From a virus, in IMG/VR virus record IMGVR_UViG_3300042336_000169, positions 1 through 24,724 of that record: 24,724 bases of DNA; one strand, 5' to 3'. Of the stretch, positions 4,693 to 24,724 are shown in pieces; the stretch's first letter is position 1; each line of letters starts with the position of its first letter. The notes under the pieces are model-generated. The model saw only the letters and a program-made list of their open reading frames with translations, was not told where the DNA came from and did not search any database. Position numbers and translations under genes: made by a program.

Positions 4693-5004
4693 ATGACACC
4701 AATTTTTGTACCGATGGGGCTCACGCAGAGTGCGGCTGTGAGTACGGTTGCAACGCTCACGATCGCCGCATACGGCCAGGCTCAAACGATCCGGCTCACG
4801 AATATCGGCACGCAAACAATTTATGTATTGTTTAACGATCTAATAAATACGGCAACGTCAGCAAATGCCATGCCGCTATTAGCGAACACGGTTGAAGTGT
4901 TTACCGTGGGGGCTGATGCAAATGGTGGCGTCACCATTCAGCACGTTACAGCGCTGGGTGCTGCCGGTTCGACTTTGTACGTCACCTGTGGGATAGGTAA
5001 CTAA
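4693..5004 (+). CDS. Small beta-rich phage structural protein
   Basis: A 103-residue protein whose ATG follows the portal stop by 8 bp with a GGATAA-type ribosome binding site. The sequence is Thr/Ala/Val-rich with alternating hydrophobic residues (TVATLTIAAYGQAQTIRLTN, then TQTIYVLFND) and no predicted long helices. This resembles the small beta-sandwich head-decoration or fibre-base proteins often found between portal and scaffold genes. It has no catalytic motif. It could be a head fibre anchor or a partner of the adjacent SGNH hydrolase, whose gene begins 1 bp after its stop. I do not recognise the family firmly. Confidence 0.65.
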   Translation: MTPIFVPMGLTQSAAVSTVATLTIAAYGQAQTIRLTNIGTQTIYVLFNDLINTATSANAMPLLANTVEVFTVGADANGGVTIQHVTALGAAGSTLYVTCGIGN

Positions 5005-5005
5005 T

Positions 5006-6634
5006 ATGACACTACGAGCCGTAGCGGGTGGATCAGGGTCAACAGCCGGTGGTGTAGGCGCAATTAGTACGCCGACGAGCGTAATGTGGCTGGGCGATAG
5101 TATCTCATCTAACGGGCAACAAAATGCTGTGGTTACGCTTGATGGTGGAGCGTGGTCTCTAACTTTTCCGACACTTACAAACATCAACGCGCTTGGCTTA
5201 TTTGTACGAACCGTCAACTCACAATGGCCTAGTCCGGCTGGTAATGGGTCACTCACATGGACGGCGGCAAATAAATCTTTTAAATGGAAAACTTTTGGTG
5301 ACACCTACGGCCCAGAAGTAGTCATTTCCAGATCTGGAATATTTAGGTTAGAAAGTGGCACGGCGGGTGGTGCGCTGATAATTTCAGTGATTAATCGAGT
5401 GAGTTATTTACCGGCGGTTGATGCCACTGATACGGTAGTTCCCGGCACGACTCTATACGCCTTTCCATCATCTGGCGGCGCATCATTTACTGGCTGGACG
5501 GAACTCCTTTTAAATTGTCCATTTGGAACATCTTTAAATTATGCAATATCAGGGATGACTGCTGTTGAGGGTTTAACGATGTCTCCTCAATGGGAATCGG
5601 TTTATTCAGATATTACAAACATTCATATTGGCACTAACGATGTCACAGATATTGCACTTGCTGGTCTTGCAATAGCGGCAATACGAGCAATGATTGCAAA
5701 GCGTAAACTCATTGGGTCGAAATGTATTGTCTGGACGTTGTTACCCTACAATGCTCGCTCAACTGATGCCAGTAAGGCAGTGCAATATTTTAATTTGAAA
5801 TTACGTCAAGTGGGTATTGACGACAAGGTGGATATCGTTGACGTTTGGAAGTATGTAGCGAATCCAGATACATCAGTAGCATGGTCTACCACTCCGGCGA
5901 TGTTATCGGGCGATGGACTGCACCCAAGTTTTTTGGGTAGTTACATTATGGCAAAACGCGGTGGATTCAATGCGTTTTCAAAATATGTTCAGCAATGTTT
6001 AGTCAGCACACCAGTTGCAGTTGCCTATGATGCAACACTTGCGCCGACTGGGAATTTGATAACCAACCCAACCCTGACAGGTACGACAGGTACAAAAGGT
6101 GGTGCATACGCAACGGGTGATGTGCCGACGAGTTGGACTGTCACGCGGGCGGTAGGGTCAGTCGCAACGGTTGTTTGCGTATCTACTGATGGCGGTACTG
6201 TACCGCGCACGGATACGGGTCAAGGGCACTGGTTTCAGATGAACATTAGCAATGCGGGCGGGGTCGATGGCGAACAAATTATGTTGCGGGGTACGAGTTT
6301 TTTAGCGGGTGCAATGATCCCAGAAGTTGGGTCATCTTACGTTTTTGAGGGTGAATGCCAAGTTAAAGTTACCGGAGGCACTGGGTTGTCTGGGTTTAAT
6401 GTAAATTTCTATTTTGCGCAAGGCAATTCGTATGCCGTTTATATGGCGAGTACTACAACGGCTGGACTTGGAACAATAGATGGTGACACTGTATACATCC
6501 CATTCAAGTCGCGGCCATTTAAAATTCCAGCGGGATTGACAAATTTTAATGTGAGTATTTTTGCATCTTTATTAGCTGGTGCGGCGTGTACTGTGAATGT
6601 GGGTCAGACGTTAAACCTTCACAAGGTACTATAA
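5006..6634 (+). CDS. SGNH/GDSL-type hydrolase, probable virion-associated esterase
   Basis: A 542-residue protein with all four SGNH blocks: block I WLGDSIS with nucleophile S32, block II Gly in ISGMT (G183), block III IGTND with N211, and block V GDGLHPS with D303 and H306. An insert of about 140 residues separates blocks I and II and is probably a beta domain. After about residue 335 the chain becomes a Gly/Thr-rich beta region (about 200 residues) that resembles a carbohydrate-binding or fibre-attachment domain. The family removes acyl groups from sugars or lipids, so deacetylation of a host surface glycan during adsorption is the likeliest role. The gene is more AT-rich than the portal and terminase genes, suggesting a separately acquired module. 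The hydrolase fold is well supported; substrate and virion location are inferred. Confidence 0.88.
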   Translation: MTLRAVAGGSGSTAGGVGAISTPTSVMWLGDSISSNGQQNAVVTLDGGAWSLTFPTLTNINALGLFVRTVNSQWPSPAGNGSLTWTAANKSFKWKTFGDTYGPEVVISRSGIFRLESGTAGGALIISVINRVSYLPAVDATDTVVPGTTLYAFPSSGGASFTGWTELLLNCPFGTSLNYAISGMTAVEGLTMSPQWESVYSDITNIHIGTNDVTDIALAGLAIAAIRAMIAKRKLIGSKCIVWTLLPYNARSTDASKAVQYFNLKLRQVGIDDKVDIVDVWKYVANPDTSVAWSTTPAMLSGDGLHPSFLGSYIMAKRGGFNAFSKYVQQCLVSTPVAVAYDATLAPTGNLITNPTLTGTTGTKGGAYATGDVPTSWTVTRAVGSVATVVCVSTDGGTVPRTDTGQGHWFQMNISNAGGVDGEQIMLRGTSFLAGAMIPEVGSSYVFEGECQVKVTGGTGLSGFNVNFYFAQGNSYAVYMASTTTAGLGTIDGDTVYIPFKSRPFKIPAGLTNFNVSIFASLLAGAACTVNVGQTLNLHKVL

Positions 6635-9262: not shown

Positions 9263-10255
9263 ATGGCTTTCGCCAATTCAGCGATAACCGACATTATCGC
9301 AACAACAATACAAAGCAGATCAGGCCAGTTAGCAGATAACTTGACTGAAAACTCAGCACTACTCAAGCGTCTTAAAAGCCGTTCGAATGTAAAACCATTC
9401 AGTGGTGGTAATGTGATTCTTGAAGAAATTATGTACAACGACACCACGACTAATAATGCAAATTCTTATAGTGGCTACGAAACCATCAACATCAGCCCAG
9501 ATAGCCCGATCAGCTCAGCACAATTCAACATTGTGCAATATGCTGACAGCGTAACCATCAATGGCCTGGAAATGCTGCAAAACAGCAGCAAAGAAGCGAT
9601 CATTGATTTGCTCGACGGCCGTATGAAAGTGGCTGAAGCTCGCCTTACCAACCGGATCGACACCGACTGCTATACGGACGGCACAGGAAACGGCGGAAAA
9701 AACATCACCGGATTGGCGGCAATGGTTTCAGATTCACCCACAGGCACCTACGGTGGAATTGATCGCAGCACCTGGGCATTCTGGGCAAACAAGGTGTACT
9801 CCGGTGTAACCAACGGTGGTGCAACTGTTTCGGCTGCGAACATTCAAGCCTACATGACGGCACTCTCGCTGCAACTGGTGCGGAATACCGACAAGGCTGA
9901 TTTGATCATTGCAGATACCGCCTACTACTCACTGTATGTTAATTCACTGCAAGCAATTCAGCGCATTGCATCCGAAGAAACTGCCGGTGCGGGTTTTGCG
10001 TCATTGAAATTCTACGGCGGCGGCACTTCTGCTGATGTTGTACTGGGCGGCGGTAACGGCTCACACGCAACAGCGAATCATATGTGGTTCTTGAACACCA
10101 ATTATATGTTCTTGCGTCCACATCGTGATCGTAATTTCGTGCCAATTGGTGGTGAGCGCCAGGCCGTCAATCAAGACGCGATCGTAAAATTATTTGGTTT
10201 TGCTGGAAATTTAACTTGCAGCAACGCATCGCTGCAAGGCGTTCTTAAAGCATAA
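9263..10255 (+). CDS. Major capsid protein
   Basis: A 330-residue protein with the strongest ribosome binding site in the window (TAAGGAG, spacing about 8). The N-terminus (MAFANSAITDIIATTIQSRS) and the Gly/Thr-rich E-loop-like segment (GGNVILEEIMYNDTTTNNAN) resemble a widespread podovirus coat family. So does the C-terminal block HMWFLNTNYMFLRPHRDRNF followed by VPIGGERQAVNQDAIVKLFG. An HK97-type fold is expected. Length is normal for the family and no insert is obvious. It lies between the scaffold and a decoration-like gene. Confidence 0.9.
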   Translation: MAFANSAITDIIATTIQSRSGQLADNLTENSALLKRLKSRSNVKPFSGGNVILEEIMYNDTTTNNANSYSGYETINISPDSPISSAQFNIVQYADSVTINGLEMLQNSSKEAIIDLLDGRMKVAEARLTNRIDTDCYTDGTGNGGKNITGLAAMVSDSPTGTYGGIDRSTWAFWANKVYSGVTNGGATVSAANIQAYMTALSLQLVRNTDKADLIIADTAYYSLYVNSLQAIQRIASEETAGAGFASLKFYGGGTSADVVLGGGNGSHATANHMWFLNTNYMFLRPHRDRNFVPIGGERQAVNQDAIVKLFGFAGNLTCSNASLQGVLKA

Positions 10256-15966: not shown

Positions 15967-16764
15967 ATGGGTAAGAGTAAAGCGCCACCGGCACCAGACT
16001 ACGCAGCCCAGGCAAACGCCACCGCAGCGGGTAATTTGGAAATGGCGAGAGCGCAGGCAATGGCGAATCGTGTAAACACCTACACGCCCTACGGTTCGTT
16101 AACCTACACAAACCCTGATACGAGCAAACCGGATGCCTGGAATTCCTACGTGAATTTAGCACCCGAGCAAAAAGCGTTACTCGATCAGCAAAATATAACG
16201 AGCCAGAAATTGGCGAATATGACGGATTCAGTCACGGGTAAAGTGGGTACGGCAATGGATCAAGCATTACCGGATGCCTATGATCCAGCACTTGCAACAA
16301 ACAACGCCGCAGCACTCATTAATACCCGGCTGGCACCACAGCAGGCACGAGAAACCGGCTACCTTGATTCCCAGTTAGCGAACCAGGGAATCATGCCAGG
16401 CAGTGAAGCCTACAACACGGCCAAAACTTTGCAGCAGCAGGGATTCAATGACGCGAAAGTACAGGCCGAATTAGCGGGTATTAACACCGGCCAACAGCAA
16501 CAAGCTCAGACGTATAACCAGGCGATGGGTAACATTAATATGCCGATGAACCAGTTGAACGCATTACGCACCGGCTCTCAAGTTACCAACCCAACATTCG
16601 CAAACGCGCCCGCGCAGGGCATGACGGCTGGCCCTGATTTACTCGGTGCTGCGAATCAGCAGTACAACGCTCAAATGAATGCGGTAAATGCCGATAACGC
16701 AAACTCGTCAAATATGTGGGGTGGGTTGATGAGCTTGGGCGGCATGGGAATGATGGCATTTTGA
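15967..16764 (+). CDS. Internal virion / tail-associated protein
   Basis: A 265-residue protein beginning right after the GNAT stop with GGGGAA as ribosome binding site. The N-terminus MGKSKAPPAPDYAAQANATA, then RVNTYTPYGSLTYTNPD, is a recurrent start of a family in podovirus ejection or tail modules. The rest is Gln/Asn/Ala-rich and helical (QQARETGYLDSQLANQGIMP, AELAGINTGQQQQAQTYNQA), ending in a Gly/Met-rich hydrophobic stretch (GGLMSLGGMGMMAF) that could contact membrane. It is the first of four genes that I read as the ejection-protein set, interrupted by the CysH-like gene. Confidence 0.75.
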   Translation: MGKSKAPPAPDYAAQANATAAGNLEMARAQAMANRVNTYTPYGSLTYTNPDTSKPDAWNSYVNLAPEQKALLDQQNITSQKLANMTDSVTGKVGTAMDQALPDAYDPALATNNAAALINTRLAPQQARETGYLDSQLANQGIMPGSEAYNTAKTLQQQGFNDAKVQAELAGINTGQQQQAQTYNQAMGNINMPMNQLNALRTGSQVTNPTFANAPAQGMTAGPDLLGAANQQYNAQMNAVNADNANSSNMWGGLMSLGGMGMMAF

Positions 16765-17462
16765 AAGTGTTGCAGTTTAGTGGTGGGAAGGATTCGCTTG
16801 CGTGTTTGTTGTTACTGAAAGATCAGTTACATGACATAACCGTCGTATGGGCTGATTCGGGCGACGCATTCCCAGAGACGCATGAGCAAATGCAAATGGT
16901 GCGGGCGATGTGCCCAAATTTTGTAGTAGCCCAGGGCGATGCGAAAGCGGTAATTGAAAAGTTCGGTTATCCCACGGATCTGCTGCCAGTATCAAACCAC
17001 TCTCAAGTAATGCAATTATCATCACAGGATAAGTTGCCGCTACAGGGCTATTTAGAATGTTGCGTACGCAGTTTTTTAGAGCCGATGCACAAGAAAACGC
17101 TCGAGCTCGGTGCCACGATGATCATTCGCGGACAGAAAGCCTGCGACAAAAAGAAAGCACCTATTAAGTCGGGTGATGTTGTCAATGGGATCGCCTACTG
17201 GTTCCCACTTGAGCACTGGACGGATGAACAGGTGATGGAATACGTAGAAGGTAGCCCGCTGCTGCCACTGCATTACGCTACCGCAAACACCAGTTTGGAC
17301 TGTATGCACTGCACTGCGTATTTATCAGATAACGCCTGGAAGCTGCCCTATTTAAAGCGCAACCATCCAACGGTTGCCACCGAAGTGCTACACCGTTTAA
17401 ATGAAATAAACGACGAAATAGAATCCGAATACAAAAACTTAAAAAGGGTGCTGAATGGATAA
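16761..17462 (+). CDS. CysH-family (PAPS/APS reductase-like) PP-loop protein with probable [4Fe-4S] site
   Basis: 233 residues from TTG 16761, overlapping the upstream TGA; GTG 16767 is an alternative start. Residues 6-12, FSGGKDS, are the PP-loop of the adenine-nucleotide alpha hydrolase fold. VVWADSGDAFPETHEQM follows, then IIRGQKACDKKKAPIKSGDV and WFPLEHWTDEQVMEYV, all standard for the CysH family. Cysteines C100-C101 (ECCVRSFLEPMHK) and C181/C184 (CMHC) form a CC-x79-CxxC pattern, the ligand set of assimilatory APS reductases. The C-terminal ECG(L/I)H catalytic cysteine motif of those enzymes is absent: the chain ends LKRVLNG. A normal sulfate-assimilation role is therefore doubtful; DNA/RNA thiolation or another sulfur transfer is possible. 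It is embedded among internal virion genes. Confidence 0.88.
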   Translation: MKVLQFSGGKDSLACLLLLKDQLHDITVVWADSGDAFPETHEQMQMVRAMCPNFVVAQGDAKAVIEKFGYPTDLLPVSNHSQVMQLSSQDKLPLQGYLECCVRSFLEPMHKKTLELGATMIIRGQKACDKKKAPIKSGDVVNGIAYWFPLEHWTDEQVMEYVEGSPLLPLHYATANTSLDCMHCTAYLSDNAWKLPYLKRNHPTVATEVLHRLNEINDEIESEYKNLKRVLNG

Positions 17463-22834: not shown

Positions 22835-22885
22835 CTGCCACTTTATTTGCCTGCCGTAGCTACCATACTTCCCAATTTCTGAATA

Positions 22886-22974
22886 GGGGGTAGGGTGGGT
22901 GGGTTAGCCATTTAATGGGTGGGTAGGTTAGCCCAAACCCGCATGGATAGTGGTTCTAATGGGTGGGTAAGTTA
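22886..22974 (+). repeat. G-rich direct repeats with a canonical G-quadruplex motif
   Basis: Three copies of the unit GGGTGGGTxGGTTAGCC or a close variant begin at 22893, 22917 and 22961; the third diverges after GGGTGGGTAAGTTA. The first copy, together with GGGGGTA just before it, makes GGGGGTAGGGTGGGTGGG (22886-22903). That is four G-tracts with loops of 2, 1 and 1 nt, among the most stable quadruplex patterns. No protein-coding explanation is visible. Confidence 0.75.
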
Positions 22975-22993
22975 TTTTAGGATTTTCAATTGA

Positions 22994-23043
22994 AACCTAG
23001 TTATTAATTAGGTTTAACCTAGTTATTAATTAGGTTTAACCTA
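22994..23043. repeat. Tandem 22-bp palindromic repeat (two copies plus a third half)
   Basis: The unit runs 22994-23015 and is repeated exactly at 23016-23037; AACCTA at 23038-23043 begins a third copy. Each unit is a dyad: AACCTA at the left, TAGGTT at the right, and an AT-rich centre (GTTATTAAT). Exact tandem palindromes of this size suggest protein binding by a dimer (repressor operator or accessory factor). An AT-rich bend in an attachment site is an alternative. Confidence 0.8.
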
Positions 23044-23290: not shown

Positions 23291-23371
23291 GACACCATCC
23301 TGACACCAAAATCGTGGAAAACCCGCGTAGAATATATAGAGTTCGACTCCGGCTTCGGGCACCAACGGGAT
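23291..23371 (+). other. att-like module 1: paired GACACCA sites plus tRNA 3'-end sequence
   Basis: GACACCA at 23291 and 23302 (11 bp apart) is followed by a tRNA-type 3' end: T-loop TTCGACT (23342-23348), T-stem 3' strand CCGGC (23349-23353), acceptor strand TTCGGGC (23354-23360), discriminator A, then CCA (23362-23364). The spacing 7-5-7-1-3 is exactly that of a tRNA. No matching 5' half (expected GCCCGAA acceptor, D-arm, anticodon arm) lies upstream, so this is not a complete tRNA gene. It is what an attachment core inside a tRNA gene looks like. The T-stem 5' side does not pair, so it is a remnant or the phage copy. Confidence 0.65.
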
Positions 23372-23458
23372 TTGTAGCTCCCCCAAAAATAGTATAAAAA
23401 AAGGGGGGGGGTTGCCGGTTCGGATCCTTTTTTTCGCCCTTTTTTATGTCGCTGTCAT

Positions 23459-23537
23459 GACACCATTTGGACACCAGAGCCCCGGAAAGCCGCATGGAAT
23501 ATAGTGGGTTCGACTCCGGCTCGAGGCACCACGGGAT
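23459..23537 (+). other. att-like module 2: diverged duplicate of module 1
   Basis: The same order as module 1: GACACCA at 23459 and 23470 (11 bp apart), then T-loop TTCGACT (23509-23515), CCGGC (23516-23520), acceptor strand TCGAGGC (23521-23527), A, CCA (23529-23531), then CGGGAT as in module 1. By eye the two modules align over their whole length with two single-base gaps and about three-quarters identity, 168 bp apart start-to-start. The acceptor strands differ (TTCGGGC and TCGAGGC), so they may derive from different tRNA genes or have drifted. This copy is nearest the integrase. Confidence 0.65.
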
Positions 23538-23568
23538 ACTAAATACATAATATAGTATTTGAATGTAT

Positions 23569-23606
23569 AAGCTCTAAACCCAGTAAAATAGGGCATTCCA
23601 GAGCTT
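23569..23606. other. Hairpin between att-like module 2 and the integrase promoter
   Basis: AAGCTCT (23569-23575) is the exact reverse complement of AGAGCTT (23600-23606). CCC (23579-23581) and GGG (23591-23593) can continue the stem inside. An AT-rich inverted repeat AAATAC/GTATTT (23541-23560) lies just upstream. No T run follows, so it is not a clear terminator. It may be an accessory protein site. Confidence 0.4.
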
Positions 23607-23634
23607 CTGCACCGCCACAAGAAAATCCCATAAG

Positions 23635-23664
23635 TTGACATAAAAACCCATATTCTGGTATCTT
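23635..23664 (+). promoter_or_regulatory. Sigma-70-type promoter for the integrase
   Basis: A perfect -35 TTGACA (23635-23640) and a -10-like TATCTT (23659-23664) are separated by 18 bp. The integrase ATG is 59 bp downstream of the -10. GACACCA sites at 23666, 23677 and 23698 occupy the predicted start site and leader, so a protein binding them would block transcription. Confidence 0.6.
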
Positions 23665-23665
23665 G

Positions 23666-23704
23666 GACACCATAAAGACACCAAATTATCGTTTTTGGAC
23701 ACCA
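23666..23704 (+). repeat. GACACCA heptamer array across the integrase promoter
   Basis: Exact GACACCA copies at 23666-23672, 23677-23683 and 23698-23704, start-to-start 11 and 21 bp, so about one and two helical turns. The same heptamer, also 11 bp apart, flanks both tRNA-like cores. Candidate integrase arm-type or regulator sites. Confidence 0.75.
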
Positions 23705-23722
23705 AAAAAATGGGGCTCTCAA

Positions 23723-24724
23723 ATGGCATATATCACAAAGCGCGGTGAGGGGTACAGGGTAGTAGTAACTCATACAACCCCGTCTGGTAAGGTGCGTTAT
23801 ACACACACAGCCAAGACAAAACAGGAAGCAGCAGCCTGGGCAGTGGATACGAAGCGCGATCTGGAACGTAAAAAAATTGGGCTGGCACCCGTAAAGCTCA
23901 CCGTTAAAGAACTGTTCGACAGATACATAGCAGAGGTATCAGTTAATAAAAAGGGCGGGGATAAAGAGATCCTTCGGCTTAACGCATTCAAAAGAGAGCC
24001 CTGGGCGGCTTTGTGCATTGATGATATTAAAACGGCGGATTTGGTTGCTTGGCGAGATCGACGGTTAAAAGTAGTCAAAGGTTCTTCAGTCAACCGTGAC
24101 TGCAACACGCTCTCAAACGTATTTCAAACTGCGGTAAAAGAATGGAACTGGATGTCGTCGTCACCCTTAACCGCGATGCGCCGCCCGCCAGAAGGTGCTG
24201 GCCGAGAACGCCGCTATACCGCTGATGAGCTCAAAAACCTATTATTTTGTCTTGGTTACGCGAAAGATACTACGCCGGATACTATTAAAGCGCGAGTAGG
24301 CGCTGCACTGCTTTTTGCAATTGAAACCGCAATGCGAATCGGTGAAATATGCGCTTTAAACTGGGGGGATGTGGATTTAGATGCCCGATTCTTACGGGTA
24401 CGTGGCGTGGATATTGGCGCAGGTAAAAGCCTGGCAGCCAAAAGAGAGGTGGCATTAACGTCTGAAGCGATCCGAATACTGCGCCAAATGACACCAAATA
24501 ACACCAATGGACACCAAGCGGACACCATTTCGGACACCATTTTTAACTTAACCCCCAAACAACAGGACTCAAATTTTAGAAAGGCAAAAAAACAAGCGGG
24601 AATTACTAACTTAACTTTTCACGATAGCAAGCATGAAGCTATCACCCGGTTGGCGCAAAAACTACTGCCACTAGAATTGGCTAAGATGGTGGGGCACAAG
24701 GATCTTAAAATCACAATGAGGTAT
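23723..24724 (+). CDS. int: Tyrosine recombinase (phage integrase), 3' partial
   Basis: 334 codons from ATG 23723 to the window edge; GGGG lies 8 bp upstream of the start. Residues 1-50 look like the three-stranded arm-binding domain, 58-155 the SAM-like core-binding domain, and 164-334 the catalytic domain. Catalytic candidates are R205 (TAMRIGE), K240 (AAKREVAL), H300, H325 (VGHKD), and Y334, the last codon in the window. At the ArgII position the sequence is HDSKHEAITRL, Lys303, whereas relatives have HDSRHEA. A stretch at 256-272 (MTPNNTNGHQADTISDT) is encoded by GACACCA-type repeats and lies in a loop of variable length. The integrase would recombine phage and tRNA-gene attachment sites. 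It reads away from the att-like modules into the unseen early region. Confidence 0.93.
   Translation, partial: MAYITKRGEGYRVVVTHTTPSGKVRYTHTAKTKQEAAAWAVDTKRDLERKKIGLAPVKLTVKELFDRYIAEVSVNKKGGDKEILRLNAFKREPWAALCIDDIKTADLVAWRDRRLKVVKGSSVNRDCNTLSNVFQTAVKEWNWMSSSPLTAMRRPPEGAGRERRYTADELKNLLFCLGYAKDTTPDTIKARVGAALLFAIETAMRIGEICALNWGDVDLDARFLRVRGVDIGAGKSLAAKREVALTSEAIRILRQMTPNNTNGHQADTISDTIFNLTPKQQDSNFRKAKKQAGITNLTFHDSKHEAITRLAQKLLPLELAKMVGHKDLKITMRY
24490..24539 (+). repeat. GACACCA array inside the integrase reading frame
   Basis: GACACCA occurs at 24490, 24510, 24521 and 24533, with a one-base variant AACACCA at 24500. Start-to-start spacings are 10, 10, 11 and 12 bp. The frame shifts between copies, so the repeats are conserved as DNA, not as a peptide repeat; they encode residues 256-272 of the integrase. 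Confidence 0.85.

Follow-up and report, generated by a model that had tools for sequence, protein, structure and literature searches.

Phased heptamers resembling integrase arm-type sites flank a tRNA-Leu-like core and recur inside the integrase gene of a viral contig

With its copies set about one helical turn apart, the heptamer GACACCA is clustered at one end of a viral contig, where it is probably a set of arm-type sites for the adjacent tyrosine integrase (Int). Of the four clusters (units A to D), unit B, a tRNA-Leu(UAA)-like core and unit C would constitute attP, unit C would also serve self-repression, and unit D, deep inside int, would be an auxiliary intragenic operator. This joint reading is the one we favor, with moderate confidence. 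The DNA analyzed (the window) comprises the 24,724 bases of IMG/VR record IMGVR_UViG_3300042336_000169; it codes for terminase, portal and major head proteins and ends inside the integrase gene. No nucleotide relative of the window was found among named phages, and no close relative in which the conservation of the clusters might be compared came to light.

The window contains 13 copies of GACACCA on the two strands together, all of them on the + strand (13/13), and 11 of the 13 lie within 23291-24539. By chance, a mean of 2.46 copies on both strands and a maximum of 6 were seen in 100 dinucleotide-preserving shuffles. The eleven positions listed in the first-pass annotation proved exact, as did the variant AACACCA at 24500, and its cluster spacings of 10-12 or 21 bp agree with those measured here: 11 bp in unit A (23291, 23302), 11 bp in B (23459, 23470), 11 and 21 bp in C (23666, 23677, 23698) and 10, 10, 11 and 12 bp in D. 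It had counted a single isolated copy at 9440; there are two, at 4695 and 9440, and no others outside the clustered region. The features referred to below are as follows.

23291..23308, + strand: unit A, two GACACCA 11 bp apart, an extra P-arm-like copy; the pair and its core repeat unit B.
23341..23364, + strand: unit A core, GTTCGACTCCGGCTTCGGGCACCA, tRNA-Leu(UAA) 3'-end-like, 1 mismatch to Pseudomonadota tRNA-Leu(UAA) genes.
23459..23476, + strand: unit B, two GACACCA 11 bp apart, putative P arm of the canonical attP, at -264/-253 from the int ATG, positioned as are the pairs of relatives.
23508..23531, + strand: unit B core, GTTCGACTCCGGCTCGAGGCACCA, tRNA-Leu(UAA) 3'-end-like, 2 mismatches to tRNA-Leu(UAA) 3' ends, the presumed crossover region.
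23635..23664, + strand: candidate int promoter, TTGACA-18-TATCTT with a TG preceding the second hexamer, from a consensus scan only.
23666..23704, + strand: unit C, three GACACCA (23666, 23677, 23698), putative P' arm at the start of int, equivalent to the triple found directly before int in relatives.
23723..24724, + strand: int, tyrosine integrase, ATG at 23723, truncated on its 3' side where the contig stops; PF00589 at 7.6e-22, phrog_1 at 1e-53, model resembling lambda and Tn1549 Int.
24490..24539, + strand: unit D, intragenic array of GACACCA at 24490, AACACCA at 24500 and GACACCA at 24510, 24521 and 24533, coding for a loop insertion predicted to be disordered.

The pairs of units A and B are each followed, 31-32 bp downstream, by a sequence resembling a tRNA 3' end. 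The sequence GTTCGACTCCGGCTCCGGGCACCA, which is the 3' end of the tRNA-Leu(UAA) gene in several of the genomes searched, differs by 1 base from core A and by 2 from core B. The 24-nt cores thus nearly match a possible attB at a tRNA 3' end, the comparison being with Pseudomonadota tRNAs that are perhaps not those of the host. Since no tRNA gene is present anywhere in the window, the cores were taken as attP-type fragments, and an occupied tRNA locus at units A and B was ruled out. Over 46 nt, core included, units A and B are 80% identical. Thirty relatives had upstream sequence long enough for the comparison, and none showed a second att copy like unit A; the best 60-nt match for such a copy scored 35 in the window against 22-33 in these relatives, which was taken as noise. 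Judged by its sequence, unit A duplicates the pair and core of B in diverged form, and only B together with C has the canonical geometry. Units B and C with the tRNA-Leu(UAA) core between them appear to form attP: two repeats, the core, and three repeats before the start of int.

Integrases of the same subfamily (~35-50% identity) were collected as relatives from IMG/VR, named phages and plasmids. A GACACCA array with more than one copy was found in 0 of 80 of them. Absence of the heptamer had been considered as a refutation; this was dropped since each relative proved to carry a repeat of its own. These private repeats include TTACGGA (L133), TCCGTCA (L142, L150 and L227), TGTACCA (L134, L136 and L137), TGGCACA (L170), TTACGCCA (L131, L198 and L208) and TTACACCA (L153), with further ones in other loci. 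A typical relative has a pair at about -205 to -250, a tRNA 3' end, and a triple spaced 11-12 bp with its last copy starting at about -6 to -37. Units B (-264/-253) and C (-57/-46/-25 relative to the int ATG) fit this pair-core-triple plan. Two relatives, L465 and L472, are integrated and show a complete tRNA-Leu followed by the triple, the pattern that an inserted element would be expected to show at its junction on the int side. The proposal of the first-pass annotation that arm-type repeats flank a core is therefore well supported: the architecture is kept in relatives while the repeat changes jointly with the N-terminal domain of Int, and those relatives that are integrated have an intact tRNA-Leu gene ahead of the triple.

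The 2+3 plan of units B and C is of a kind already known, being that of the Pixie attP, in which a tRNA core has an arm-site pair to its left and three sites to its right, in direct orientation (PMC3203893). Among cluster K1 phages, arm motifs likewise vary between relatives with the integrase N-terminal region (PMC3203893). The window differs from Pixie in its repeat, its host and its tRNA (tRNA-Lys in Pixie), and no array deep inside int was described for Pixie (PMC3203893).

Which protein would bind the repeats was judged from co-variation. Across 58 loci, repeat similarity was correlated with identity in the Int N-terminal domain after the effect of the catalytic domain had been removed (partial r 0.35, permutation P 0.0005), while the converse partial correlation, of repeat with catalytic domain, was 0.07. 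Repeat similarity tracks the arm-binding N-terminal domain of Int and not the catalytic domain. In the predicted structure, the N-terminal domain of the window Int consists of strands at residues 2-7, 10-19 and 22-30 and a helix at 33-51, modeled with high confidence. The catalytic domain belongs to the phage integrase family (PF00589, 7.6e-22), and the predicted model matches lambda and Tn1549 Int. The co-variation and the lambda/Tn1549-like predicted structure favor Int over a directionality factor as the binder, and from the sequences we infer that the repeats are bound by the Int N-terminal domain.

A recombination directionality factor of the Xis, Apl or Cox type, coating att, repressing int and reaching into the gene, would give the heptamers another meaning. 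Such factors have operators made of direct repeats spaced by a helical turn, as in phage 186, where Apl sites with 10-11 bp spacing lie at att and promoters (PMC7498355), and TorI of KplE1 represses int as well (PMC2951348). Nevertheless, the repeats of the window flank the core on both sides in the 2+3 plan published for Pixie as arm-type sites (PMC3203893), and unlike the Apl sites, which are bound by the directionality factor, they follow the integrase N-terminal domain. Moreover, an unsystematic inspection of the window, which breaks off within int, brought up no gene for such a factor. We regard a directionality factor as an unlikely binder.

GACACCA itself is found in other settings. In viral contigs searched for the same motif, triple arrays were frequent, and many of these, spaced in multiples of three, resemble repeats of coding sequence. 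In a set of viral contigs, GGGACACCATA arrays lie in noncoding DNA, and the sequence examined yielded no integrase. Noncoding GACACCATAGGGACACCATAGGGACACCA-type arrays with 11-bp spacing, often with more copies 50-65 bp away, were observed in L010, L011, L016, L019, L022, L034, L035, L049 and others; again, no integrase was detected in the DNA examined for these recurring contigs. Pairs or triples of GACACCA also lie beside unrelated tyrosine integrases, mostly adjoining tRNA sequences (L118, L215, L217, L223, L063, L055). As pairs flank tRNA sequences beside unrelated integrases (L118, L215, L217/L223, L063), the motif is not specific to this Int family. In L215, a GACACCA pair sits inside the 3' end of int. 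The literature search returned no report of GACACCA as an integrase arm site; the one hit that seemed relevant, in the KplE1 paper (PMC2951348), was not traced in its text.

The first-pass annotation had placed repeats over the int promoter, and their position bears this out. A promoter-like TTGACA-18-TATCTT adjoins the GACACCA at 23666, and unit C follows directly, upstream of int. Promoter-consensus matches in the region numbered 4 against 2.9 in shuffles, which alone is weak evidence. The att region overlaps this candidate promoter, a feature of autoregulated genes of the KplE1 intS type. In KplE1 the integrase promoter overlaps the arm sites and is repressed by its own product, as tested experimentally (PMC2951348). 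By analogy with intS and from the position of the sites, int would be autoregulated by Int. The KplE1/HK620-type intS-attL region is comparable in that its int promoter, beside a tRNA gene, is overlapped by an att region bearing arm sites, and negative autoregulation was demonstrated there; the arm motif and the tRNA (argW in KplE1) differ from those of the window, and the sites mapped in KplE1 belong to attL and precede the intS ATG (PMC2951348). Cluster J mycobacteriophages such as Omega and BAKA also target tRNA-Leu, and arm-like sites located at their int start codon were proposed to allow integrase self-regulation (PMC3706429). Their attP is, unlike that of the window, downstream of int, and the extra sites form an inverted pair at the start codon rather than a deep phased array (PMC3706429).

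Unit D lies ~0.8 kb downstream of the promoter and nearly 1 kb from the core. Its five heptamers fall in codon phases 2, 0, 1, 0 and 0 of the int frame (ATG 23723) and encode TP, NT, GHQ, DTI and DTI. With the Int protein held fixed, at least four GACACCA were obtained in 45 of 20,000 synonymous recodings. The use of three codon phases and the scarcity of such recodings imply that selection or copying acted on the DNA. A repeated Int peptide motif under protein-level selection is very improbable as an account of unit D: the last two copies share a frame and each reads DTI, but the five sites as a whole use three codon phases and the loop is predicted to be disordered (residues 260-269, pLDDT below 50). 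The array codes for an insertion absent from relatives, the aligned sequences being ~7-11 residues shorter there.

Units A and D might also take part in recombination itself, as additional arm sites of the recombination complex in an extended attP, and not in regulation. They share motif, orientation and phasing with B and C, and some phages, L5 for example, have extra arm sites (mentioned in PMC3203893). Against this, D is almost 1 kb from the core, while the arms of relatives stay within ~250 bp of int, and we consider a direct role in recombination distinctly unlikely.

Sites inside int were then considered in the relatives, with motifs defined from upstream DNA only and sought afterward inside the int genes. 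In 48 nonredundant loci, 16 exact same-strand motif matches were found in int against ~3.0-3.1 expected when motifs were swapped or their letters permuted; with the window left out, there were 12 against ~3. A phased cognate pair was defined as a locus's own repeat occurring twice, 9-13 bp apart, in either orientation and with at most one mismatch in all. Under this test, devised after unit D and L138 had been seen, 7 of 54 nonredundant loci (window included) had a pair inside int, compared with 0.35 expected with permuted motifs (P for at least five, 2e-5). By motif swap the result was 6 of 48 loci against 0.28, and the control, the kilobase downstream of int, gave a pair in 1 of 45. Such pairs were found in the window, in L138 (two TTACGGA at 11-bp spacing), in both L142 and L150 (inverted TGACGGA/TCCGTCA), and in L141, L135 and L477. 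L142 and L150 are related, so the independent cases number about six. Intragenic pairs are present in a minority of relatives only, at differing places in the gene, and are inverted rather than direct in one clade. The first-pass annotation had called the continuation of repeats into the int coding region unusual. The continuation is real and a feature of the DNA; it is not unique, as related integrases do likewise with their own motif.

In the clade of L142, L150 and L227, in which only 47-62% of conserved residues share a codon, the intragenic pair coincides with long runs of nucleotide identity. Between L142 and L150 (47%), no other stretch of identity in the gene is as long as the 29 nt at 513-542, which include the pair. 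A 23-nt run at 519-542, again over the pair, ties for longest between L150 and L227, and a 32-nt run at the pair is the second longest between L142 and L227.

These comparisons weigh on a further account, in which unit D has no function, having arisen when arm DNA was copied by slippage or recombination into a loop of int that tolerates it, and intragenic sites are tolerated by-products and not operators. The spacers within D differ, a portion of D is similar to unit B (GACACCATTT[C]GGACACCA), intragenic sites occupy variable loops, and the changed catalytic arginine of Int is compatible with decay. However, about six independent cases recur, and the pair is kept at the DNA level in the L142/L150/L227 clade. 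We judge the by-product account rather unlikely, though the most plausible of those set against an operator role. The catalytic change concerns residues 300-303 (24620-24631), which read HDSK, with lysine codon AAG, versus HDxR in relatives. Arg205, Lys235 and His300 are present, residue 303 is Lys in place of Arg, and the tyrosine position is past the contig end. In a survey of relatives, 283 had Arg at this second catalytic arginine position and a single one, the window Int, had Lys; Lys is found there too in L477, a more distant relative with intragenic sites. The lysine may be a sequence error near the contig end, the mark of a damaged enzyme or a real variant. Given the truncation in the contig and the lysine, this copy of int may be damaged.

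To return to the arm-site reading, own-motif repeats inside int in several relatives suggest that Int binds within its own gene, and this binding probably serves int control. The N-terminal domain of the adjacent lambda-type Int would bind the heptamers as arm-type sites, and Int would bridge the arm sites of B and C and the core for recombination with the tRNA gene. On unit C, at the presumed int transcription start, it would repress its own promoter. Unit D would be an auxiliary operator sited where Int tolerates a disordered insertion, and Int bound there could help to repress int, either through a DNA loop to unit C or as a block to elongation. We infer the binding of Int, its repression and the contribution of D. 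In lac, O2 within lacZ is an auxiliary operator inside the regulated gene. The likeness to unit D, a second operator within the regulated gene, is one of function only; unlike lac O2, D would be bound by the recombinase itself, on arm-type repeats.

More broadly, and as a tentative proposal that we find appreciably less secure than the reading of the window, arm-binding Int genes may recurrently hold functional sites for their own product in the coding sequence, maintained at the DNA level in tolerant loops and re-evolved when arm specificity changes. Such a moving intragenic operator would couple recombinase dosage to its own DNA specificity. In the open-access literature searched, no arrays deep inside int were found. 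The usual search for arm-type sites covers only the surroundings of the attP core and the int promoter. Should integrases also bind within int, an element would be missing from attP limits as now predicted, from integrase expression cassettes and from models of autoregulation, and recoding of int for biotechnology could silently alter control. The subfamily offers dozens of natural pairs of motif and N-terminal domain for solving arm-site recognition, and intragenic sites provide an independent check on a predicted arm motif.

Other features of the window were noted. A perfect tandem 22-bp repeat, AACCTAGTTATTAATTAGGTTT, lies at 22994-23037, between the last tail-side ORF and att, each copy being near-palindromic, and GGGTGGGTRRGTTA-type repeats are found immediately upstream, at 22880-22975. 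Amid the structural genes, the ORF at 5006-6634 is GDSL-lipase-like (PF13472) and that at 16716-17462 is PAPS-reductase-like (PF01507, 4.5e-14).
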